From Zoogloea sp. (GTDB lineage: Bacteria > Pseudomonadota > Gammaproteobacteria > Burkholderiales > Rhodocyclaceae), in assembly GCF_028693495.1 (NCBI RefSeq), contig NZ_JAQUVG010000026.1, positions 1 through 37,073 on the forward strand: 37,073 nucleotides of DNA, in the 5' to 3' direction. The notes under the pieces were generated by a model. It worked only from the letters and a program-made list of their open reading frames with translations. It did not search any database and was not told the DNA's origin. Shown here piece by piece: positions 2,162 through 32,195 of this stretch (position 1 is the stretch's first letter; each line of letters begins with the position of its first letter). Made by a program: the position numbers and the translations under genes.

Positions 2162-3237
2162 CAGATCATCTCCATTTTGTGCAAAATTTCTTTACCTACT
2201 TTATGAATTTGTTCTGCTGCAGTTCCAGTTGGTTTAGCCAGAACCAATGGAGGTTGTACATCTTCTTCAGAAAGTGTTTTTGGGAATTCTTCACTTCTAT
2301 GAATCATCACATTTAGAAGAGAACCTGGATATTCTGAAGAAAGTTTACTGACCTGGCTATAAACCCGAAGCCTGTTTGGAAGGTGGAAGTTACCTATCAT
2401 TATCATTTCTGGACTTCTTCCGAAGTCGTCACGCATATCTTGAAGGACTGATGAAAGATATGAAACTGCTTTTGTCGAATAACGTTCCAGTGATACCGGT
2501 GCTAGAACATAATCTGATGAAAGAAGAGCGCCCCGTGTCATTCTATTTTTAGCTGGAGCGGCATCAAAAATTACTATATCGTAATTCGAAATATTGAAGT
2601 ATTCATTTTTTGATGAAAGACCTTCTGAAATAAGTGCAGCGATTTTAAGATCACTTTTTTTTCCTTCAAGAGCATCATAAGTCAGGATTGTATCCAGCCT
2701 ATCAAGAGTTAAGTCTGATGGTATCAAGTGAGGTCCTGACGCACCGAAGGGCATTTTTAGAACGTCTTCCAGTTTCATCCGCCCACCCGGCCATCCAGGA
2801 ACCAGGTGCCCAAAGTGATGCTTAACTACTCTCTCAAAAGGTATTTCAAGTTCTTCTGCTTCTTCATCAGTGATTTCAGAATCGTATCCAAAAGATAGAG
2901 TCAGATTTGCTTGAAAGTCGAGATCTATTACTAATGTTTTCAAACCCATTAAAGAAAATACACACGCTAAGTTAGCTGCCAGTGTTGTTTTCCCTACACC
3001 CCCTTTTGGTGCGTACACAGTAATGACTCTCTTTTTTTTGATCTTTATTTTTGGTTTATTTTCTTGTCGCCAGGAAGCAATGTCAAAAATGTTCTCGATG
3101 GTGAATTGGCGAGTTTTTGGCCCGTTTGTCTGTCTTGCTACTTTTACACCAGCTTCGTCAACGTACCGTCTTACAGAATCTACTGTTGTCTCCAGTAGTT
3201 TGGCTGCAGCTTGAACCTTGTAAATTGTCTTGAACAT
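2161..3237 (-). CDS. parA: ParA-family partition ATPase with N-terminal HTH
   Basis: This 358-residue Walker-type ATPase moves plasmid copies over the nucleoid together with ParB. Residues about 1-60 form a MerR-like helix-turn-helix (YKVQAAAKLLETTVDSVRRY), the type Ia layout that lets ParA repress its own operon. The deviant Walker A box KGGVGKTT lies at about residues 78-85, VIDLDFQANLT (A' box) at about 103-113, and the IVIFDAAPAKN segment is the Walker B region. The length fits type Ia rather than the short type Ib. The leader reads AGAAAGACACAAA before the ATG. A TATACT box lies about 50 bp upstream. Codon use is AT-rich like parB and unlike the GC-rich flanks. Confidence 0.88.
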   Translation of the reverse strand: MFKTIYKVQAAAKLLETTVDSVRRYVDEAGVKVARQTNGPKTRQFTIENIFDIASWRQENKPKIKIKKKRVITVYAPKGGVGKTTLAANLACVFSLMGLKTLVIDLDFQANLTLSFGYDSEITDEEAEELEIPFERVVKHHFGHLVPGWPGGRMKLEDVLKMPFGASGPHLIPSDLTLDRLDTILTYDALEGKKSDLKIAALISEGLSSKNEYFNISNYDIVIFDAAPAKNRMTRGALLSSDYVLAPVSLERYSTKAVSYLSSVLQDMRDDFGRSPEMIMIGNFHLPNRLRVYSQVSKLSSEYPGSLLNVMIHRSEEFPKTLSEEDVQPPLVLAKPTGTAAEQIHKVGKEILHKMEMI

Positions 3238-3285
3238 TTTGTGTCTTTCTGAATTATTGTCAGCGTGCTTATGCTTGGGGACAAG

Positions 3286-3313
3286 AGTATATTTTGCTAG
3301 TTTTTTAACTTAA
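3286..3313 (-). promoter_or_regulatory. Candidate parAB promoter
   Basis: On the minus strand a TATACT -10 box (3291-3286) is preceded, after a 16-bp spacer, by TTAAGT (3313-3308), a weak -35 match. The -35 lies inside an imperfect inverted repeat of T- and A-runs (3300-3317), which could be where the ParA N-terminal HTH binds. The -10 box is good, the -35 poor. The surroundings are AT-rich, so chance matches are likely. Confidence 0.35.
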
Positions 3314-3444
3314 AAACAATTTTTTTCCTTGCAAATATATGGAAATCATAGATTGTCCGGACTTGTTGTATGTGATCTCTCCGGTTTCATTGCTCGGCGC
3401 GCTCTAGACTGAAGTGCAACACCCCGATTTGGTAGGGTGTACGC

Positions 3445-4080
3445 ATGGGACATCACTACAGTCAGTTGTCGATGGACGAACGCAATCAAATTCATCGGTG
3501 TAAGAACGAGGGATGGAGTCTTCGGGCAATTGCCCGAAGACTCCATCGGCCGACGTCCGCGGTGTCGCGCGAAGTAGCGCGCAACACGATTGGCAAGAGC
3601 TACGATGCCGCCCGTGCAGAGCGCGCGACGCTGGCGCGCAGGCGGCGCGGAACGATCAAACTGAAGATCGGCTCCGTGCTGCTGAACCGGGTTTGTGCCC
3701 TGATGGCAGAGAACTGGTCGCCGGAGCAGGTTGCGGGCAGACTGCGGCGGATGAACCCCGACAATCCGAGCTTGCATGTCTCGTACGAGACGATCTACTG
3801 CGCCATCTATGCCCTGCCACGGGGCGAGCTGCGCAGCGAACTGATTGCCCAATTGCGCTTCGCCCACAAGGCGCGAATGCCCCGCACACAGGGCCAGGAC
3901 AGGCGCGGCACCTTGCCGAACATGACCTCCATCCATCTACGCCCTATAGAGGTCGCGGCCCGCCTTGTGCCTGGGCACTGGGAAGGGGATCACATCAAGG
4001 GGCCGGGCAACCGCAGTGCCGTGGGCACCCTGGTGGAGCGCAAGAGCCGCTACCTGATGCTGGTCAAGCTGCGTGACGGT
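3445..4080 (+). pseudogene. IS30-family transposase, C-terminally truncated
   Basis: The protein starts MGHHYSQLSMDERNQIHR, typical of IS30 transposases. The N-terminal HTH (WSLRAIARRLHRPTSAVSRE) is followed by a second DNA-binding region (ENWSPEQVAGRL, then HVSYETIYCAIY) and the start of the DDE core with the first Asp in HWEGDHIKG. Homology stops after ERKSRYLMLVKL at about 4075, so the second Asp and the Glu are missing and the element must be inactive. The frame runs on to 4233 through unrelated sequence. A short inverted repeat (ACACCC/GGGTGT, 3419-3440) lies just before the ATG, and the sequence TGAAGTGCAACACCCCG probably belongs to the left end of the element. From 4079 to 4168 another frame gives an unrecognised C-terminal-like tail ending EGFFRAD. 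Confidence 0.8.
3512..3547 (+). repeat. Perfect 36-bp palindrome inside the IS30 transposase gene
   Basis: Two 18-base arms meet with no spacer. The left arm GATGGAGTCTTCGGGCAA is followed at once by its exact reverse complement. The bases just outside (G at 3511 and G at 3548) do not pair. The palindrome encodes part of the HTH (WSLRAIARRLHR), so it coexists with a normal protein sequence. In RNA it would form a strong hairpin about 70 bases into the coding region. Confidence 0.95.
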
Positions 4081-4179
4081 GCACCGGAAACTGGAAGATC
4101 AGGCAAGGGCTCAACCGCGCGCAGGCCGCGTGGGGAAAGGCTCCGAGGGGTTCTTCAGGGCCGACTAACTATCTTGACT

Positions 4180-4263
4180 GGTGCCAGAAGCTTCCGGGAT
4201 GTACTCAAGCATCTCCGAGATCTCTTTCCCTAGGAGCTTGAAGGCGCCGCGGGGTGTCGGCCG
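4180..4263 (-). pseudogene. IS66-family transposase scrap
   Basis: On the minus strand a short frame reads GAFKLLGKEISEMLEYIPE. It matches the pattern of the zinc-binding region of IS66 TnpC proteins (CGG-x-L-x-x-LGEDVSEMLEYVP). It loses homology on both sides within about 25 codons, so it is a small relic. The break on the left lies right after a second copy of the 12-mer AACTATCTTGAC (4167-4178). The call rests on one conserved stretch. Confidence 0.5.
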
Positions 4264-4416
4264 TCTTGGGGGTCTTTGGCCGTCAGACCGGTAGCAAGCG
4301 ACGACAAATTGAATATTTCAGAGTCGACTAATTTTACCAGGGGTGGGCGTGTGGGGTTTTTCGAGGCGCCGGATTGTTCAGGCCAGACTAGTTCGTTGTG
4401 ACGTTGTATACATATA

Positions 4417-10338: not shown

Positions 10339-13300
10339 TTACCTTGCACATTCGGCCTGGGGCTGGGGTGCAAGGTAGGGCAGCAGCGTTGGCCCCATGG
10401 CTTTCAGGATCTGCACAGGGAGGGCGGAGGTGAAGTAATAGCTGCCGGCTTCCGGCCCGATGACGTAGGCCGTCAGGGTGCCGAAATGCCGCGGGCCGAG
10501 ATAGAACACGAAGGTGGCCGTGCGGTTCTGCGCCACACCCCGGGTCTTGCCGCGCCCGATCACGATGCGGTTGTCACCCGTGCCAGTCTTGCCGCCCACT
10601 GACAGGGGGGCACCGTCGGGGAGCTTGAAGGCACCGGACAAGCGCCGGGCCGTTCCTCCTTCGACGACTTCCGACAAGGCGTTGCGCAGGGCGGCGGCAA
10701 CCTCCGGTGCCATCACCCGTTCGCCTTCACCGGTGACATGGGCGAAGCGTGTCTCGTAGGGCGTGCCCACACCGAAATCCAGCCGGTCGATGCGTAGTGT
10801 GGGCTGGCGCATTCCGTCATTCACGATGATGCCCATCAACTCGGCCAAGGCGGCCGGCCGGTCCCCGGAACTGCCGAGGGCCGTGGCCAGGGAAGGTACG
10901 AGATGGCCGAAGGGATAGCCCAGCCGTGCCCACCGTCGGTGGATCTCCACGAAGGCTTCGATCTCTAGCATGGTGTAGATGCGCGAGTCCTTGGCGCTTT
11001 TGTGGCGGGTGCGGAAGAGCCAGCGGTACACCTGCTGGCGCTCTTCCTGACTGGCTTGCACCACTTCGCTCCAGGGGGCGTCGGGCTTGCGGCTCAGGTG
11101 CCCGACCAGCCATAACTCGAGAGGGTGAATCCGGGCCACATAGCCTCGGTCTGGCAGGTCGTAGGCTTCCGGGGCATTGCGCAGATAGAGTTTGTTGACT
11201 GCTTCGCTGGACAGGGAGGCGTCTTTCAGACGCTCTCTCAGGAAGCTGCCCAGCGCCTCGGGCGATGCCGTGGGAGACAGGTAGCGGAACACGGCAGTCA
11301 GCCGGTCGGCGCTGGGGCGCAGGTCATCCAGAAAATCTTCGCGGATCACCTCGGGCGTCTTGCCCTGGTATTTATGCCAGAAGCGCCGCAGGAAGGCCTG
11401 ACCTTCCCGGTCGGCAAAGCGGGAGAGGTATTCCTGACGCAAGGGATCGCTTTCATCCTCGAGCAGGCGTGCGGTCTTGCTGGGGCCCTGATAGAGAGTG
11501 TGACGCAGGATGTCGCGCATCAGGCGCACGAAGGGCAGGTTGATCGAACCCTGCAGGGCTTCCCGCAGGGTAGGCTGGCGGCCATTGTCCTCGGCGCGGA
11601 AGTTGTTGAAGGTGTGCAGGCCGCCGCCGGTGAAAAAGCTCTCTCCGGGGCTGGCCGAGTAGCGTCGTTCGAGGGCCGCCTGCAGCATTGCTGTCAGGCT
11701 GCGGTCCGTGGCCTGAGTCAGGTGCTCAAGGGCCCACTGGGTGAGCCGGTCCTTGGGCTCGGCCTTCCGCTTGCGCAGTTCCGCCGGGCTGAGGCTGCCG
11801 TACTCCTGATGCAGTTCGGCGATGATTTCCAGATAGGTGGCCAGTACGCGCAGCTTGGCGGTCGAGCCCAGCTCCAGTTTGCTGCCTTCATTGATGTCCA
11901 GGGGCTGATCAGTGGTGTCCGTCTGCACGCGCACCCGGTTGCCGTCCGGAGTGTGCTCCACGAGATTGAAGCTGTAGTGAATGGCTTCGAGTTTTCCCGG
12001 TGTAAGCATCTGCCGGCCGATGAGGCCCTGTCGGGCGGCAAATTCGGCATCATGCAACTGGCTCAGGAAGTCGCTGACCTTGCGCTGCAACTCGCCGTTG
12101 AGGGGCGTCGTGACGGCCAGGTCGAAGCGGTCCAGCTCATAAAGGGAGGCGCTCAGGGTGCTTGCCAGTCGATTGCGCACGGTGGTCGCGCCCTTGCCCG
12201 ACTCGGCGGGATGAACGGGTGGATCCGCGGCGAAGTCCCGGAATTTCAGGGGCTCGGCCAGGGCTGCGTCCCGGAGTGCCGGACCGATCAGGCCGTTCTC
12301 GGCCAGGAGGCGCAGATAGCTGGCCGAGAGGATGGCGAGGCGTTCACGCCCCTTGCCTGGCAGATAGAAGCTGGGCCGGCGATGGGCGATCATCAGAGCT
12401 ACGACCTGATGCAGCGCACGACCCTGGGCGGCCAGCACCTCTCCCTGGCCTTCGGGGCTGGTCAGCAGGACATTGACCCGGTCGAAGTCGGCACCGAACC
12501 ACACCCACAGGCCATCCCCCAGTCCATTGACTTCCCCATGTCCTGCCGCTGCGGCCAGCGGTACGGTATTCAGGTAGTCGAGAATCAGACGACGCCGTGC
12601 GGGCAGGGTCTGCTCTCCGTCCAGATACGCGCGCACGCTGCCCGACATCATCTGACGGAGTTTTTCACCGGCACTGGCCGTGACGCCGTCGGGGGAGTGG
12701 CGGAATTTCTCCAGTTGGGTGGCCAGGGTGCTGCCGCCGGGTGCGTCCACGTCGGAGCCCACGACGCGCCCGAGGCGTCCCAGCACGGCACGGGCAAAGC
12801 GTACCCAGTCCACGGCCGGGTTCATGGTCGGTCGTGCTTCGTCCAGCAGGCCCCGGTTCTCGATGAACATCAGCGCTTCGGCAACCCGGGGCGGAATGGC
12901 GGCGAAGTCGGCGTAATGGCGGAAGGGGTAGCGGAACTGGTAGAGGGTGTCTCCGCGACAGTCGCTTACGTCGAGCCCAGTCCGGGTTTTTTCCTGGTAG
13001 GGCGCAAAATAGCCGCGCTCCGTGTAGTCCATCAGGGCATCGGAAAACCGCGCCTGGCGAGTGAGACGGAAGCCCTGGGCATCCATGCGTTCCAGGATGC
13101 CGGGCAGGCGGGTATAGCCGAGGCGTTCGTCAAAAGGCCCGTGGCTGGGGTAGCGCAGGGGCCCGCCGGGACCTTCCACGACTGTATAGGTGAGCTGGGT
13201 GGCGTAGCGGGATAACTCCCGGGCCTGCAGGGCCGAGGTCTCGATCTCATCGGCGATGAACATGCCTCCCGCGGTCAGGGCAATGCCCAGCAGGCCTCCG

Positions 13301-22245: not shown

Positions 22246-22686
22246 TTACCTCTCGCAGGCCATGTGCAGCAGCCCCTGCTTGATGGCGATCTGGGTGGGG
22301 CGGTTGAAGCTTCTGGGCAGCCGGTTGCGCCGGAACCAGCGGAAGTGGGAGTGTTCCTGGTTGAGCCGGGGGGCGACCTCCCGTTCCACCTGGAGCAGGT
22401 AATAATGAAGCTGCCGCTGGCTGCCGGTCTTGCTCCCCGCCACCCGGTACAGCTTGATCAGCTGCTTCTGTTTGATCCGGATGCCCGCTTCCTCGGCCAG
22501 TTCCCGCACCAAGGCGTCCCGGGGCTCCTCACCCTCGTCGAGACGTCCCCCGAAAAAATTCCATGCGCCCGCCTTGTTCATCATGGGTGAGCGCTTGCCG
22601 AGCAGGAACTTGCCCGTTTCGGCGCAGTGGATGATTGCCCAGGCGCCCGCATCGGGAAGCCGTTTCTTCGCGCTGTCCTTGGCCAT
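22246..22686 (-). CDS. Nudix hydrolase
   Basis: The 146-residue protein has one Nudix fold with the full box at about residues 47-69: GGRLDEGEEPRDALVRELAE then EAGI, which fits G-x5-E-x7-R-E-U-x-E-E-x-G-U. Around it are AWAIIHCAETGKFLLGKRSP and FNRPTQIAIKQGL. Nudix enzymes cleave nucleoside diphosphates linked to another group, with Mg bound by the box glutamates. The substrate is not evident; the size fits mutator or Ap4A-type housecleaning enzymes. It is transcribed toward the ArsC-like gene and away from phaC. Confidence 0.9.
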   Translation of the reverse strand: MAKDSAKKRLPDAGAWAIIHCAETGKFLLGKRSPMMNKAGAWNFFGGRLDEGEEPRDALVRELAEEAGIRIKQKQLIKLYRVAGSKTGSQRQLHYYLLQVEREVAPRLNQEHSHFRWFRRNRLPRSFNRPTQIAIKQGLLHMACER

Positions 22687-24785: not shown

Positions 24786-24801
24786 TCCTGCAGGGTGGCT
24801 T

Positions 24802-24849
24802 GAAATGCCTGGGGAGCGCCGTTGAAAGGCGGAGCTCCCCAGGCATTTC
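24802..24849 (+). terminator. Strong hairpin after phaC
   Basis: A perfect 16-bp stem (GAAATGCCTGGGGAGC at 24802-24817 and its complement at 24834-24849) encloses a loop that itself has a small CGCC/GGCG stem. It starts 17 bp after the phaC stop and shields the following DUF262 operon from read-through. The T-run is short. Confidence 0.75.
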
Positions 24850-25011
24850 ATCGTTCACACCGGATCAGGCGGGCTGCCTTTTTGCCCATGGGGAGCCCTG
24901 ATTGATCCGGTTCTGCAGGAGGGCCTGGCGGGCAGTGTCATGGGACAAGGGAGTCAAAAACCGCCAGAATGGCCCTCCCGATCACCGCGCCCTTGAGGAA
25001 TACCCGAAATC

Positions 25012-26406
25012 ATGACGGACAGCAGCCTGGACAAGGGCATCCTGACGGTGGGGGAATTGCTGCTCGACCGGAGCCTGGCAATTCCCGTGTATCAACGCCC
25101 CTACAAATGGACGACCGCGCATGTGCACCAACTGCTGGGAGATCTCCTGACCCATCGTCACAAGGAGGCCTACCGCCTGGGCACCCTCGTGTTCCACCGG
25201 GAGACCGAAGACGGACGGCGCTACATCGTGGATGGCCAGCAGCGTACGGTCACCCTGATGCTCATCGTCCAGGCCCTGATCCAGGAGCACCTGGAGGGGC
25301 ACCGGCTCGAGCGCAATGACCTGAAGGTCAGGCTGGCGGAGCTGAAAACGGCTCTGGCGGCTTTCGATCATGATTTCGACAACCCGCTTTCCCAGCGCAA
25401 CATCCGCAACAACTATCTGGACATCGCCCGTTTTGTCGCTCGTCCGGAGTGCGATGAGGATCTGGTCGCCTTCCTGCTGGAGCGCTGCCAGCTGGTGACC
25501 TTCACCCTGGGTGACATCTCCGAGGCTTTCCAGTTCTTCGACTCCCAGAATGCCCGGGGGCGTGACCTGGATCCCCATGATCTCCTCAAGGCCTTCCACC
25601 TGCGGGCCTTCAGCCTCCAGGATGAGCCTCTCAAGGCGCGCACTGTCTCCGGCTGGGAGAACACCGACAGCGGGGAGCTGGTGACCCTGTTTGCTCAGTA
25701 CCTTTACCGCATCCGCCAGTGGGTCAAGGGCCGTTCTGCCCGCTACTTCAGCAAGGAGGACTGTGCCCTATTCAAGGGGATCAATATGGATGAGGTGGCC
25801 CATTACCCCTATGTGGAGGGCCTGCGCATCACCCACCATTTTGTGGACAACTACAACCGGCACTATGCCCGCAATATCGACGGGCAGCGGATGGCCTTTC
25901 CCTTCAGCCTTGATCAGATCATCCTCAATGGCCGCCGCTTCTTCGAGATGATCGCTCACTACCAGCTGACGGGCTTTCACAAAGGTGGCCTGACCCTCAA
26001 GGCGGAGAGCCTGGGGGGCTGCAGGCTCTCGGAGACGGCGGCTTGCATCACCGAGGTCCTGAACACCTATGAGGGTCGTCAGCGGACCGGTGATCGCTAT
26101 GTGCGCATGATGTTTGATTGCCTGCTGGTGTATTACCTGGATAAGTTCGGGACAGCAGAACTGTCCCGGGCCATCGAGAAAATCTTCATCTGGGCCTACA
26201 CCCTGCGCCTGCGCCTGCAGAGCGTGCACCTGGCGAGCGTGGACAACCATGTCCTGCAGAACAACCTCTTTGCGCTGCTGAGGGATGCCACCGCTCCTGA
26301 AGCCCTGCTGGATTACCCTCTCCCCATGCTGCGCCGGCCGGATCCCCGCTGGAATCCCGCCCCCGGACTGCTCGCCCTTTTCGAAAAAATGCACTATGTG
26401 GAATGA
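25012..26406 (+). CDS. DUF262 protein (GmrS-like, stand-alone)
   Basis: The 464-residue protein has an N-terminal DUF262 (ParB/sulfiredoxin-like NTPase) domain: IPVYQRPYKW at residues 24-33, IVDGQQRTVTLMLIVQAL with DGQQR at 74-78, and a third motif FQFFDSQNARGRDLDPHDLL near 175-195. In GmrSD and BrxU the DGQQR motif is needed for nucleotide use. The C-terminal half is helical and lacks the EH...N...K nuclease motif, so this subunit probably senses or binds rather than cuts. It overlaps the next gene by 11 bp, implying fixed stoichiometry. It is well separated from phaC by a terminator-like hairpin. It is most likely half of a modification-dependent anti-phage system. Confidence 0.85.
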   Translation: MTDSSLDKGILTVGELLLDRSLAIPVYQRPYKWTTAHVHQLLGDLLTHRHKEAYRLGTLVFHRETEDGRRYIVDGQQRTVTLMLIVQALIQEHLEGHRLERNDLKVRLAELKTALAAFDHDFDNPLSQRNIRNNYLDIARFVARPECDEDLVAFLLERCQLVTFTLGDISEAFQFFDSQNARGRDLDPHDLLKAFHLRAFSLQDEPLKARTVSGWENTDSGELVTLFAQYLYRIRQWVKGRSARYFSKEDCALFKGINMDEVAHYPYVEGLRITHHFVDNYNRHYARNIDGQRMAFPFSLDQIILNGRRFFEMIAHYQLTGFHKGGLTLKAESLGGCRLSETAACITEVLNTYEGRQRTGDRYVRMMFDCLLVYYLDKFGTAELSRAIEKIFIWAYTLRLRLQSVHLASVDNHVLQNNLFALLRDATAPEALLDYPLPMLRRPDPRWNPAPGLLALFEKMHYVE

Positions 26407-28435
26407 CCCGCCCATCACCCTGTCCGTCCGGCAGCTCCTGACGGATCCGGCACTCCACCGCATCCCCATGTATCAGCGCAACTATGCCTGGGGTGAGGGA
26501 GAGATCACCCAGCTGATCCGTGATGTGGTGGACTCGGTCCAGGAAGGGAGTGCCCAGGGTCACCCCTATTACCTGGGTACCCTGGTGGTTTTTGAACGGC
26601 AGGAAGACGCCCTCACGGTTTTTGAGGTCATCGACGGTCAGCAGCGCCTGACCACCTTGCTCCTGCTGTGTCTGTACCTGTGTGGCCAGGGAGACCGCCC
26701 CTCCGGATGGACGGCCCGATTGAACGTGGATTTCGAGAATCGTCCCCGGTCGCGCCGGACCCTTGAGGCGATTGCCCGCCTGGGCACCCATCCCGCCGCC
26801 CTGGACGGACTCGCGCCTCAGGACACCCATGAAGGCATCCGCCAGGGGTACGAAATCATCCGTCGTGTCTTGCCCAGGGCGCTCAAGGACACGGATCCGG
26901 CGTCCCCCCTATCCCGGGAAGCCTTTGCCCGTTTCCTGTACGAAAAGGTCCGGATCATGCGGGTCAAGGTTCCCCGCGACACGGACTTGAACCACTACTT
27001 CGAGATCATGAACAACCGGGGGGAGCAGCTTGAGAAGCATGAGGTGCTCAAGGCCCGTCTCATGGCGGTGTTTGCGGGCAACGACGAGGAGGCAAGGCAC
27101 AACCGCCAGTGCTTCAACCGGATCTGGGAAGCCTGTGCCAGCATGGACAGGTACGTTCAGGCCGGGTTTGTCCCCGGTCAGCGGGACCGGATCTTTGGTC
27201 CGAAGGACTGGGGATCCCTCCAGATGGCCGATTTTGACCAGCTCCGGGACTGCCTCTGCGGGGCCGAGGAGGCCGCTGGAGATCCGGGTGTCCGTGGGGC
27301 AACTCTGGCGGAGCTGACCCGCCCCGGCTGGCGGGGGCCCGGGGTGGCGCCACTGAAGGAGGCTCCCCCCGAGCGTTTCGGTGCTGTCATCAACTTCCCC
27401 AACTTCCTGCTCCAGGTGTTGCGGGTATTCCGCCAGGTGGAGCTACCCCTGGATGACAAACGTCTGATCCGAGTCTTCGAGGTGCACCTGCTGGCAAGCC
27501 GCAGCCCCCGGGAGGTGAAGGATTTTGCATTCACCCTGCTGCGCTGCCGTTTTCTGTTTGATCAGTACGTCCTCCGACGGGAGTCCCTCGGGGGTAGTGA
27601 CGCCTGGACTCTGCAGCGTCACATCTGGCGCGAGGGCAATGGTGCAGGGCAGGCCGACTACCTGAACACCTTCAGCACGGCGGGGGACAATCGCCGGATC
27701 CTGATGCTGCTCGCCGCCTTCCATGTGTCGGCTCCCGGCCAGGCTTACAAATACTGGCTCCAGGCGGCCCTGGACTGGCTCCACGCCCGCCATGCAGCGG
27801 GGGAGGCCATCACGGAAGAGAACTATCTGGCCCAGCTGGAATCGGTGGCCCGGGCATTCGTCTTCGACAGGCATCTGGGGGCAGGCCTGGGCTATGACCA
27901 GATCATCCGGCACAACGCCGGCGCCTGTCAGGCCCGCCGGGCCTCCTTCGACCTGATCCGCATGGATGACCAGCTGACGTTTGAAGGCCTCCAGAACAAT
28001 CTGGTCTTCAACTACCTGGATTATCTGCTCTGGCTTCGTCATGGGGCCCGCTGCGCGGCCATCCAGAAATTTGAATTCACTCCGCGCAGCTCGTTGGAGC
28101 ATTACTATCCCCGACAGCCCATGCCCGGTCACGATGCCTGGGTGGATGAGGACCTGGACTGTTTCGGTAATCTTTGCCTGATCAGCCACAGCAAAAACTC
28201 CCGCCTCAGCAACCATCCCCCCGAAGCCAAGAAATCCCATTACAAGGCAGGGAATCCCGACAGTATCAAGCAGTACCTGATGATGGAAATGACCACCGGG
28301 GAGACGCCCTGGACCCCTCAGACCATGCGTGCCCACTACGAAGAAATCAAGGGCGTCCTGCTGGACGCCCTTGACGAGGCTGCGCCACCGGTAGCCGGGT
28401 GCGCGGATGCACCCGGGACCGGAGCAGGCAGTTAG
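26396..28435 (+). CDS. DUF262-DUF1524 protein (GmrSD-like nuclease)
   Basis: From the ATG at 26396, which overlaps the previous stop by 11 bp, the protein has 679 residues. The N-terminal DUF262 domain shows IPMYQRNYAW at 23-32, VIDGQQRLTTLLLL with DGQQR at 80-84, and YFEIMNNRGEQLEKHEVLKA. After a long helical region the C-terminus carries a DUF1524 His-Me-finger nuclease: SLEHYYPRQ with His569, then CFGNLCLISHSKNSRLSN (Asn592 and Asn601) and KKSHYK. This is the fused GmrS-GmrD layout of type IV restriction enzymes, which cut DNA with modified bases. Another DUF262 gene directly upstream makes a two-sensor, one-nuclease system. A longer in-frame start at 26285 lies deep inside the previous gene. 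The last bases overlap the stop of the convergent PEP-CTERM gene. Confidence 0.87.
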   Translation: MWNDPPITLSVRQLLTDPALHRIPMYQRNYAWGEGEITQLIRDVVDSVQEGSAQGHPYYLGTLVVFERQEDALTVFEVIDGQQRLTTLLLLCLYLCGQGDRPSGWTARLNVDFENRPRSRRTLEAIARLGTHPAALDGLAPQDTHEGIRQGYEIIRRVLPRALKDTDPASPLSREAFARFLYEKVRIMRVKVPRDTDLNHYFEIMNNRGEQLEKHEVLKARLMAVFAGNDEEARHNRQCFNRIWEACASMDRYVQAGFVPGQRDRIFGPKDWGSLQMADFDQLRDCLCGAEEAAGDPGVRGATLAELTRPGWRGPGVAPLKEAPPERFGAVINFPNFLLQVLRVFRQVELPLDDKRLIRVFEVHLLASRSPREVKDFAFTLLRCRFLFDQYVLRRESLGGSDAWTLQRHIWREGNGAGQADYLNTFSTAGDNRRILMLLAAFHVSAPGQAYKYWLQAALDWLHARHAAGEAITEENYLAQLESVARAFVFDRHLGAGLGYDQIIRHNAGACQARRASFDLIRMDDQLTFEGLQNNLVFNYLDYLLWLRHGARCAAIQKFEFTPRSSLEHYYPRQPMPGHDAWVDEDLDCFGNLCLISHSKNSRLSNHPPEAKKSHYKAGNPDSIKQYLMMEMTTGETPWTPQTMRAHYEEIKGVLLDALDEAAPPVAGCADAPGTGAGS

Positions 28436-29120: not shown

Positions 29121-32100
29121 TTACGGGGCGACGACGAAGTCGCGGCCGCTGTCGATGGCGCTGGAGGCAACCCCCTTCAGCAGTGCCAGCGGGCGGGCAA
29201 TGGCAGTACCGGCATTGCCGTCCGGGTCGATCTGGATACTGGTGCCGGCGCTGGTGGACACCAGCTTGAGGTAGCCGTCGGCGACCGGATTGGTGCCGGT
29301 GTAGCCGATGCTGACCAGCAGGGCGCGCAGGTCGATACGATCCGTGCCGGGCACGAAGTCGGTGATCGTGTCGCCCGCATCCCGCAGGCTCTGGTAGACA
29401 AAGGTGTCTGCACCACTGCCCCCGGTCAGGGTGTCGGCGCCCGCTCCTCCGCTGATCACGTCATCCCCGGCGGTGCCGGTCAGGGTGTCACGGCTACCGC
29501 TGCCCTCCACCTTCTTCACCAGGTTCAGGCCGATGAGGACCGGGTCGTGGTCAGAAGAACGGTAAGGCGTGGCGGAGTACAGGTCGGGAGTGCAGGTCGG
29601 GCAGACCGGCGTCTTGAACTCCAGGTTGTAGTCCAGGAAAGAGGGTTCGTCCGCGTTGATGTGCCAGTGGCCGATGCCGGCCACCTGGGCGTCCAGGGAG
29701 GCGCTGGTGAGGGCATGGTCCAGGTAGCCGATCTCCCCGTCGAAGACGTAGGAGTAGGGCTGGCTTTCCCGGGCGGCCAGCTGGTCCACCAGGCCGGCGC
29801 CGCTCAGGGCCAGGATCGGATCTTCCTTGCCGTAGGCGTTCAGGTCGCCGATCACGGCCACGTCCGGGTCAGCGGCGCTGGCCTTGACCTGCTCGATGAA
29901 GTTGAGGAGCTGGCGTGACTGGTCCACCCGCTGGGCGTTGTAGCAGCCCTGGCCGTCTCCCTGATCCTGGTTGGCTCCGGTGGCGTCCCCGCAGCCCTTG
30001 GACTTGAAGTGGTTTACCACCACCGAGAACTTTTCGCCGTTGGCGGCGGCAAAGGTCTGGGCCAGGGGCGGGCGGTTGTGGATGGCGGAGGTGTCGGACA
30101 GGGCGGCACCGATCCGGGTCAGCTTGCCGGGTTTGTAGATCATGGCGACCTTGATCTCGTCGCTGCCGGTTCCACCGGCCGGATCCGGTACCACGGCATA
30201 GGTGCCGGCACCCAGTGCGGCATTGAGGCCGTTCACCAGATCCTGGATCGCCGAGGTGGCCCCATGACCGTCGTTCTCGATCTCCATCAGGCCCACCACG
30301 TCGGCGTTGATGGCCTTGAGGGCGCCGATGATCTTGGTGCGCTGGCGCTCAAACTCGGTGATGCTGGAGGCGCCCCGGGAGGTGGGGAAGCCGCCGCCCG
30401 TGCCGTTGCCGTTGAAATAGTTGAGAACGTTGAAGCTGGCCACCTTGACGTTGCCGCCCACATCCAGCGGGGTGGTGGTGCGGGGGTGTGCCCGGCTGAA
30501 GCTCACCGCTTGGGTGGGATGGAGGCGGTAGTCGATGGCGGCCGGCGTGCTGGCATTGATGGCGCCCTGATCCAGGACCCCGACCAGCTCCCCATTCACC
30601 GTGTCACCACCACGGACGGTGTTGCCGGCGCCCAGATAGGGCGTCGGGCTCGGGTTCTGGCGGGTGGAGCCATCATCCAGCACCAGCAGGCGGCGCTGGT
30701 TCTCGTCGGCCAGGGCCAGGGCTTCCGGCGAGCCGGCGGGGAAGCGGTTGGTGGCCTTTTCGATGCGGCCGTTGGCCGACAGGGTCAGCTGACCGAAGCG
30801 GCCCAGGAAGAAATTCTGGGCGACGGTCATCGGGGAGACGATGCGCACCAGCATGCCTTCGTAGCGCTCCAGCTCGCCATTCACCGATTCCGGCAGGCTC
30901 ACATCCACCGGGGTGACGCTTTCGCCACTGGCCAGCAGGCTGATGCCGGTGGGGGCGGTGAGCTGGGTCTGGCCATTGAATTCGGCCACACTGCCCTTCA
31001 GGCTGATGCGCTGCCCTGCCGCCACGGTGGGCGGGGTGCTGGTGAACACATAGATCCCATCCGAGGTGGCCGGGTTGCCGTCGCCCACCGGATCCTGCAG
31101 GAAGAAGCCGTTGTTGGTCACCAGGGTGACCACGCCCGTCACGCTGACGCTCTGGCCCAGGCGCGGGCTGGTGGTGCCGCTCCCCTGAATTTCCCCGATC
31201 GGGGTGATGCTCGCCGCCGGGGTGACCGTCACATCCACGGTGCAGCTGGCGCTTTGCGCCCCGTTGTTGGCGAACAGCACGCTCACCGGATAGCTACCGG
31301 CCGCGACACTGGCGCTGGCCTGGAGGGTCACACTGGCAGAGCCGCCGTTGGTAGTGGCCGGGGTGGTGCTGCCGAGGCTGATGCCGGCCACGGCGCCGCT
31401 GGCGAGGGTGGCAGTGGTGACAATGCTGTCCGCATCGCTGGCGCTCAGGACCACGCTGCCGGCCGTGCCCTGCTGGACATTCAGCGGGCTGCAGCTCGCC
31501 ACGATGGGCGCGTTGACGGGGGCGCTGCCGCCGCCGCACTGATTGACAGGCGATCCGCTGTTGCGGGGAGAGGGCACGTCGGCTACAAAGTCGGCACCGT
31601 TCTGGTCGCTGTCGGTACAGCCGCCGGCGGCGCGGAACAGGGCGAGGCTGTTGCTGGGTGCCGGCGCAGCGGTGGTGCCTTCCTTGAAGTTGGCGCTCCC
31701 GAAGCCCACCAGGTCCACGATCTGGGCACTCTGTTCAGAGCTGCAGGGGGTGCTGCCACCGTTACAGGCGATGCCGGTCGCGGTGTTGGCCAGGATCACC
31801 TTGCCTGCGGTTGCCGCCATGGTAATGTTGCCGGACGCGTCGGGGCTGGGCAAGACGGCGCCGGTGCCGGCGCCGGGGGCGAGCTGGACCAGGAAATACT
31901 GGCCTGGCTGCAGGGTTCCGCTCAGGGGCGTCCTCGAGCTGGCGAAGTTGCCGGTGCCGGCAGCGCTGGCGTACTGGATGGACCAGCCCTCCAGGCTGAT
32001 GGGCGTGCTGCTCCGGTTGAAGAGCTCGACGTAATCGTTCTTGAAGGGGCTGAGGTTATTGCCACCGCCACCGAACAGCTGGCTGATGACGACATCGGAG

Positions 32101-32195
32101 GCGGCCAGGGCAAGGCCGCTGACGCTGAGCAGGCCGGCGGCGCAGAGGGCCGTGGCAAGGCGGTTGGGTAGGTGCATGGAGCGCATTCCGGGCAT
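29121..32195 (-). CDS. ExeM/NucH-type extracellular nuclease with RTX-like C-terminus
   Basis: The 1024-residue protein begins with a signal peptide (about residues 7-32, ending LALAAS). A lamin-tail domain follows (VVISQLFGGGGNN ... NDYVELFNRS). Then come Ig-like repeats and an OB-fold region (SITPIGEIQGSG ... VSVTGVVTLV). The endonuclease/exonuclease/phosphatase domain spans about residues 583-890, with VASFNVLNYF, VVGLMEIENDG (metal Glu), VIGDLNAYGKEDP and SSDHDPV. The last 120 residues hold Ca-binding nonapeptides (GGAGADTLTGGSGADTF) and a type I secretion-like tail. Homologues degrade extracellular DNA for nutrients or biofilm remodelling. Having both a Sec signal and an RTX tail is unusual. 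The exact start is uncertain: in-frame ATGs occur at 32195, 32186 and 32177. Confidence 0.9.
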   Translation of the reverse strand: MPGMRSMHLPNRLATALCAAGLLSVSGLALAASDVVISQLFGGGGNNLSPFKNDYVELFNRSSTPISLEGWSIQYASAAGTGNFASSRTPLSGTLQPGQYFLVQLAPGAGTGAVLPSPDASGNITMAATAGKVILANTATGIACNGGSTPCSSEQSAQIVDLVGFGSANFKEGTTAAPAPSNSLALFRAAGGCTDSDQNGADFVADVPSPRNSGSPVNQCGGGSAPVNAPIVASCSPLNVQQGTAGSVVLSASDADSIVTTATLASGAVAGISLGSTTPATTNGGSASVTLQASASVAAGSYPVSVLFANNGAQSASCTVDVTVTPAASITPIGEIQGSGTTSPRLGQSVSVTGVVTLVTNNGFFLQDPVGDGNPATSDGIYVFTSTPPTVAAGQRISLKGSVAEFNGQTQLTAPTGISLLASGESVTPVDVSLPESVNGELERYEGMLVRIVSPMTVAQNFFLGRFGQLTLSANGRIEKATNRFPAGSPEALALADENQRRLLVLDDGSTRQNPSPTPYLGAGNTVRGGDTVNGELVGVLDQGAINASTPAAIDYRLHPTQAVSFSRAHPRTTTPLDVGGNVKVASFNVLNYFNGNGTGGGFPTSRGASSITEFERQRTKIIGALKAINADVVGLMEIENDGHGATSAIQDLVNGLNAALGAGTYAVVPDPAGGTGSDEIKVAMIYKPGKLTRIGAALSDTSAIHNRPPLAQTFAAANGEKFSVVVNHFKSKGCGDATGANQDQGDGQGCYNAQRVDQSRQLLNFIEQVKASAADPDVAVIGDLNAYGKEDPILALSGAGLVDQLAARESQPYSYVFDGEIGYLDHALTSASLDAQVAGIGHWHINADEPSFLDYNLEFKTPVCPTCTPDLYSATPYRSSDHDPVLIGLNLVKKVEGSGSRDTLTGTAGDDVISGGAGADTLTGGSGADTFVYQSLRDAGDTITDFVPGTDRIDLRALLVSIGYTGTNPVADGYLKLVSTSAGTSIQIDPDGNAGTAIARPLALLKGVASSAIDSGRDFVVAP

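Follow-up and report, generated by a model that had tools for sequence, protein, structure and literature searches.

GmrSD, BrxU and SspE are described as typically consisting of a single protein (PMC12137116), and an enrichment of DUF262 beside GmrSD genes had been noted earlier (PMC4619093). Two-gene systems have since been published, and a pair of overlapping genes, here called A and B, in a 37,073-nucleotide stretch of Zoogloea sp. DNA (contig NZ_JAQUVG010000026.1; the whole stretch is referred to as the window) is a further example. Its product is very probably a type IV restriction enzyme of the TgvAB/GmrSD-ECOR17 kind, made of two subunits and dependent on DNA modification.

TgvAB, reported in 2024 from the Vibrio pathogenicity island 2 (VPI-2) of Vibrio cholerae, carries DUF262 in both proteins and DUF1524 in TgvB only. 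By the published account, both proteins are required, as are the DGQQR motif of each and residues H571 and N602 of TgvB, and the system, tested against Tevenvirinae, acted on T-even phages (PMC11411939). Its genes lie within a five-gene type I restriction-modification (RM) operon of the order hsdM-hsdS-A-B-hsdR. The same paper gives 1,341 tgvAB matches in a survey of 41,142 genomes and tgvAB homologues 17 times more frequent than the five-gene operon (PMC11411939), so that embedding between hsdS and hsdR does not define the wider family. In Escherichia coli ECOR17, GmrS1 and GmrSD2 (2025) are reported to be both needed, with E582 and H583 in the active site, and two-gene systems to make up three of the 20 commonest enterobacterial GmrSD clusters (PMC12373910). 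GrwAB (2025), from West African-South American V. cholerae, is likewise described as two DUF262 proteins, one with DUF1524 and both needed (PMC12137116); it is reviewed together with TgvAB in PMC12409362. An earlier note on the window, made from its letters, had taken the addition of a second DUF262 protein for a new arrangement, a view that these three systems overturn.

Architecture of the pair and its published counterparts

25012-26406, + strand: gene A (TgvA/GmrS1-type), ATG start, 464 amino acids
26396-28435, + strand: gene B (TgvB/GmrSD2-type), ATG at 26396, 679 amino acids
26396-26406, + strand: 11 base pairs shared by the two genes, where A ends and B begins, read from the sequence

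No Shine-Dalgarno sequence is evident upstream of B when the sequence is read directly, and from this together with the 11-base-pair overlap we infer that translation of A and B is coupled. Pfam places GmrSD_N/DUF262 (PF03235, E = 1.2e-28) at residues 17-196 of A and DUF7834 (PF25202, E = 3.1e-71) in its C-terminal part, at residues 208-442, and finds no nuclease domain in this protein. B has GmrSD_N (PF03235, E = 4.1e-28, residues 12-223), a helical middle part and GmrSD_C/DUF1524 (PF07510, E = 1.8e-7, residues 540-651), a His-Me nuclease that is confined to this second gene. The motifs YQR, DGQQR and FxxxN stand at residues 27-29, 74-78 and 176-180 of A and at 26-28, 80-84 and 202-206 of B, whose catalytic histidine is residue 569 within LEHYYP. 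Much of the earlier note is thereby borne out: the overlap, DUF262 in both proteins with DUF1524 in the second only (by profile hidden Markov model search with PF03235 and PF07510), the YQR and DGQQR motifs, His569, and a compact, GmrSD-like character. It had overlooked DUF7834, and A is therefore not the bare stand-alone DUF262 protein that it described.

All 32 aligned homologues of A combine GmrSD_N with DUF7834, and among 34 homologues of B, GmrSD_N is found in 34 and GmrSD_C in 33; the motif residues are invariant or nearly so across both sets. Because both proteins match curated families above the cut-off, the pair is conserved and its motif residues hardly vary, it is not a product of chance. 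The 25 PADLOC matches listed per protein comprise only Orf5, HEC-06 and SspE models, with mREase_IV in addition for B, and an NCBIfam search with A and B gave zero matches.

AlphaFold2 models of A (mean predicted local distance difference test score, pLDDT, 89.7; predicted template modelling score, pTM, 0.75) and B (85.7 and 0.69) were compared with known structures by Foldseek. The B model retrieved DndI (E = 2.0e-10), SspE and BrxU (7p9k, E = 4.2e-4) at template modelling (TM) scores of at most 0.48, and the A model SspE and DndI at no more than 0.44, too low to bear on the fold of DUF7834. A sequence search of solved structures returned weak matches only, to DUF262 proteins such as DndI and SspE. 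The idea that DUF7834 derives from the middle or the nuclease region of B was rejected for want of support, profile comparison having shown no relation between the C-terminal part of A and any part of B (hhalign probability below 1%). A literature search over titles and the beginnings of abstracts found no title announcing a heterodimer or complex structure for DUF7834-type pairs.

With TgvAB the window pair shares two adjacent genes on one strand, A first, DUF262 in both products, DUF1524 in the second only, and the same motifs. Two Vibrionaceae loci, L282 and L283, encode a B with His571 and Asn602, matching TgvB, and carry DUF7834 in A, as the window does (E = 2.5e-43 for L282). In L282 the gene order by Pfam is HsdM-HsdS-A-B-HsdR, and the succession of gene sizes in L283 is the same; from residue numbers and layout we take both loci to be TgvAB. 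H569 and N601 of the window B align with H571 and N602 of the L282 B. The window pair differs from TgvAB in lying between phaC and a PEP-CTERM gene instead of in a type I RM operon with hsdS and hsdR, in being about 24% identical to the TgvAB-type L282 (24% over 424 positions for A and 24% over 687 for B), and in being known here from its sequence.

The likeness to GmrS1/GmrSD2 lies in the combination of a GmrS-only gene with a GmrS-plus-nuclease gene. An enterobacterial pair, L200, has E582-H583 in B, numbered as in GmrSD2, and DUF7834 in A (E = 9.3e-77); from the numbering alone we take it to be the ECOR17 pair or one very near it. Its identity to the window pair is about 53% for A and 42% for B. 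GrwAB, judged by its published description, resembles the window pair in its two DUF262 proteins, one with DUF1524, but differs in that the nuclease-bearing GrwA comes first, whereas in the window the partner precedes the nuclease, and in that GrwB has an extended C-terminus with multiple unknown domains, described as distinct from TgvA, against the 464 residues of the window A. Single-chain GmrSD, BrxU, SspE and DndI share the DUF262-plus-nuclease architecture of the window B, which unlike them is accompanied by a second DUF262 protein bearing DUF7834.

We propose DUF7834 in A as a feature of two-gene GmrSD-like systems; it is present in the window A, in L282 and in L200. Through it, TgvAB and the ECOR17 system probably fall into one family, a mildly new grouping. 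The name DUF7834 was not found in the literature searched, the papers on these systems included.

Conservation and descent

A scan of named genomes, from which the best 80 loci were taken, recovered DUF7834 at 36 loci by our own profiles, and at 31 of these the next gene downstream, on the same strand, is B-like. Of the 31 pairs, 29 show the nuclease part, and the remaining two are truncated where the contig ends. Pfam recovered two further DUF7834 pairs (L072 and L075), giving 33 of 38 DUF7834 loci paired. The remaining five comprise three at a contig edge (L043, L046, L069), one at a masked run (L079) and a decayed copy (L071), in which A is broken into frames and B is shortened with the A-then-B order kept. 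One of the 31 pairs, L045, has its A split into two frames. The gap between A and B ranges from -47 to +9 bases in 28 of the 31; the others measure -304, -550 and +100, the two large negative values being a product of mechanically assigned start codons.

The same arrangement holds in two further samples. Among genomes sampled from the class, eight of nine DUF7834 loci are paired and one lies at a contig edge; at a tenth (L039), a weak partial DUF7834 match falls within a single-chain GmrSD-like protein without a partner. Within the Vibrionaceae, DUF7834 occurs in 20 of 247 genomes (22 matches), and A followed by B with a nuclease match was found in 20/20 stretches, a set from which two matches were left out, one in the genome of L050, whose pair is counted above, and a weak one in G581. 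The two genes are thus conserved together in other genomes, against the refuting case that the earlier note had set out. By comparison, two adjacent DUF262 genes were seen at one (L103) of 42 named loci without DUF7834, a control in which the Pfam check covered L073 and L103 and more pairs may be hidden.

At L103:9986-14007 (Empedobacter), neither of the two adjacent DUF262 genes has DUF7834 or GmrSD_C (Pfam, E 0.01); this is perhaps another two-gene type. Locus L059 (Neobacillus) has copies of A at 3180-4295 and 11678-12976, about 7 kb apart, with a B only after the second.

The distance matrices of A and B, compared over 43 pairs of which some rows are near copies, correlate with r = 0.94, a value reached in 0 of 2000 permutations. 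The nearest neighbour is the same for A and B in 30 of the 43 pairs (permuted mean 1.0, maximum 8, 1000 permutations). In a tree of DUF262 domains, built from 122 of 139 rows after a domain-length filter had removed 17 (B of L282 among them), 44 A domains group with L073 (support 99/91), and 40 B domains group with L072 and L075 (support 100/100); the second gene at each of these two loci resembles B and includes a nuclease part. Both branches span several phyla, the named hosts in the tree including Pseudomonadota, Bacteroidota, Bacillota, Actinomycetota, Myxococcota and Kiritimatiellota. The DUF262 domains of A and B thus form distinct branches whose descent is correlated across phyla. Domains, motifs, gene order and pairing are, like this correlation, features seen directly in the window pair and its homologues.

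Proposed mode of action and alternative readings

Activity, complex formation and substrate of the window pair can be proposed by analogy with its relatives. A and B would be made from one coupled message and would work jointly, most likely in a heteromeric complex in which both DUF262 domains bind and hydrolyse nucleoside triphosphates. The complex would recognise modified phage DNA, and recognition would release the His-Me nuclease of B, leading to DNA cleavage. A would be an obligatory partner that serves as the sensor half, as an allosteric gate or as a shield against phage inhibitors; a division into sensor and cutter is a guess. That A and B form one working unit, as the earlier note had suggested, gains support from the relatives, in which TgvA and TgvB, and likewise GmrS1 and GmrSD2, are reported to be jointly needed. 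Since the window pair is closer to the ECOR17-like than to the TgvAB-like pair, our first guess at the substrate is sugar-modified hydroxymethylcytosine, a doubtful guess that is more apt to fail than to hold.

Several points weigh against this reading. Joint inheritance would give a correlation of A and B distances even if the two proteins never touched. Residue numbers are the basis of the TgvAB and ECOR17 identifications, joined by gene layout in the case of TgvAB. The window A and B are only 24% identical to the TgvAB-type locus, and a substrate cannot be read from sequence. Finally, the window pair lies outside a type I RM locus, unlike several of its relatives.

The alternative that survives best is that B is a complete single-chain GmrSD and A a separate or merely regulatory neighbour without a share in the work. 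B alone does have the full single-chain layout, its Foldseek matches are SspE, DndI and BrxU, all at TM-scores below 0.5, and GmrSD, BrxU and SspE are, as noted above, characterised as typically single-protein systems. This view sits poorly with the correlated descent and with the 33 of 38 named loci at which A and B are paired in one fixed order, and in two relatives neither gene alone protected, by the published accounts (PMC11411939, PMC12373910); we consider it unlikely.

Still less probable is a role in abortive infection or self-DNA surveillance instead of classical restriction. The ECOR17 pair is reported to be grossly toxic under induced co-expression (PMC12373910), and TgvAB cultures were inhibited in growth and partly lysed by three of four phages at higher multiplicity of infection (MOI). 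Against this, Bas35-infected TgvAB cultures grew like uninfected ones up to an MOI of 5, and the authors of that study concluded that TgvAB acts directly on the phage (PMC11411939).

That A is a decaying duplicate of B, as its lack of a nuclease and its DUF262 domain, 29% identical to that of B over 225 aligned positions (remaining local matches being insignificant), might suggest, is rejected as highly improbable, because its DUF262 motifs are intact and are invariant or almost so in 32 homologues, its conserved DUF7834 has no counterpart in B by profile comparison, and the A and B domains fall into separate multi-phylum branches in which the window A does not group with the window B; a decayed first gene, which the earlier note had named as a refuting case, is thereby contradicted.

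Genomic setting and spread

The pair stands alone between phaC (PF07167) upstream and a PEP-CTERM gene (PF07589) downstream, as the earlier note had placed it.

24801-24850, no strand assigned: inverted repeat of 21 base pairs, 95% complementary, with an 8-base loop, between phaC and gene A

This repeat is probably the phaC terminator; it is absent from the list produced by a terminator scan. When ten other window proteins, a subset of the window genes, were searched with PADLOC, nine gave no match. The claim that no other defence genes lie nearby holds for these nine and is qualified by a NUDIX-domain protein (22246-22686, - strand) that matches the candidate model PDC-S07 (E = 2.1e-18). NUDIX proteins are common, which makes this a weak match. 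Adjoining the PEP-CTERM gene, a 1024-amino-acid protein (29121-32195, - strand), without a PADLOC match, has a C-terminal part that by eye resembles RTX calcium-binding repeats.

The guanine-plus-cytosine content of A and B, both overall (GC) and at third codon positions (GC3), is near that of phaC, so composition gives no mark of recent arrival. The genome itself has three DUF262 matches: A, B and a protein on another contig (genome G000, contig C178; L040:2579-4696, - strand), a single-chain GmrSD with an added DUF4357, so that it probably holds both one-gene and two-gene type IV systems. Full-length A was not found in 22 other genomes of the genus, some of them incomplete, where matches were to the DUF262 part only. 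DUF7834 is present in 11 of 369 genomes sampled from the class, this one included, and in 0 of 14 control genomes; such patchy presence fits the expectation for a mobile defence module.

For an empty-site test, phaC was sought in 30 other genomes and 13 stretches around its homologues in relatives were compared with 17 window genes, chemotaxis matches below 45% identity being excluded. The far-side flanking genes of the pair and the NUDIX and LMWPc genes were found in none of the 13 stretches, flavodoxin- and pirin-like genes near phaC in four, and a weak match to window gene 34897 in two; no insertion boundary or empty site of the pair was demonstrated among them.

Relatives of A occur on plasmids: 954 of 72,556 plasmid records match by tblastn, 874 of them covering at least 80% of A, and 859 of the 954 are from Klebsiella. 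One Klebsiella record that was inspected holds overlapping A and B genes, labelled there as DUF262 and DUF262-HNH proteins. At 99% identity or higher, the DNA of this pair recurs in 272 of 5,426 complete E. coli genomes (about 5%), and in 251 of these the match covers at least 80% of the query. Matches to A in phage records are few (4/50,697, none over 80% of A), and in viral contigs A is present at seven of 79 loci, five paired and two at an edge. On a cyanobacterial plasmid (Picosynechococcus, L201:5992-10138), A is accompanied by a B that an IS1 transposase gene interrupts.

The neighbours of relatives were surveyed as 96 open reading frames (ORFs), three per side at 16 named loci; a 17th locus (L081, six ORFs) was dropped owing to a size limit. 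HsdM_N, N6_Mtase and Methylase_S were each found seven times, and the PADLOC type I methyltransferase model matched eight of the 96. As a control, 86 ORFs around phaC homologues of seven relatives (86 of 143 from 12 loci) were searched at the same threshold, and three RtcR-type PADLOC models matched one ORF each, probably the same one; this control is weak, its ORFs having been chosen by length and some probably not being genes.

Taken together, these results suggest that the systems so far published in a few cases are members of a single widespread family. More tentatively, and with slightly less than even confidence, we propose that DUF7834 marks a single ancient two-subunit type IV family that includes TgvAB and the ECOR17 system, works as an obligate heteromer across many phyla and uses DUF7834 as its interface or modified-base reader. 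For this domain of unknown function, the likely role would be that of the partner domain of a two-subunit type IV restriction enzyme. Why TgvB alone is insufficient is left open in the published account of TgvAB (PMC11411939), and the conserved residues of DUF7834 offer a place to test it.

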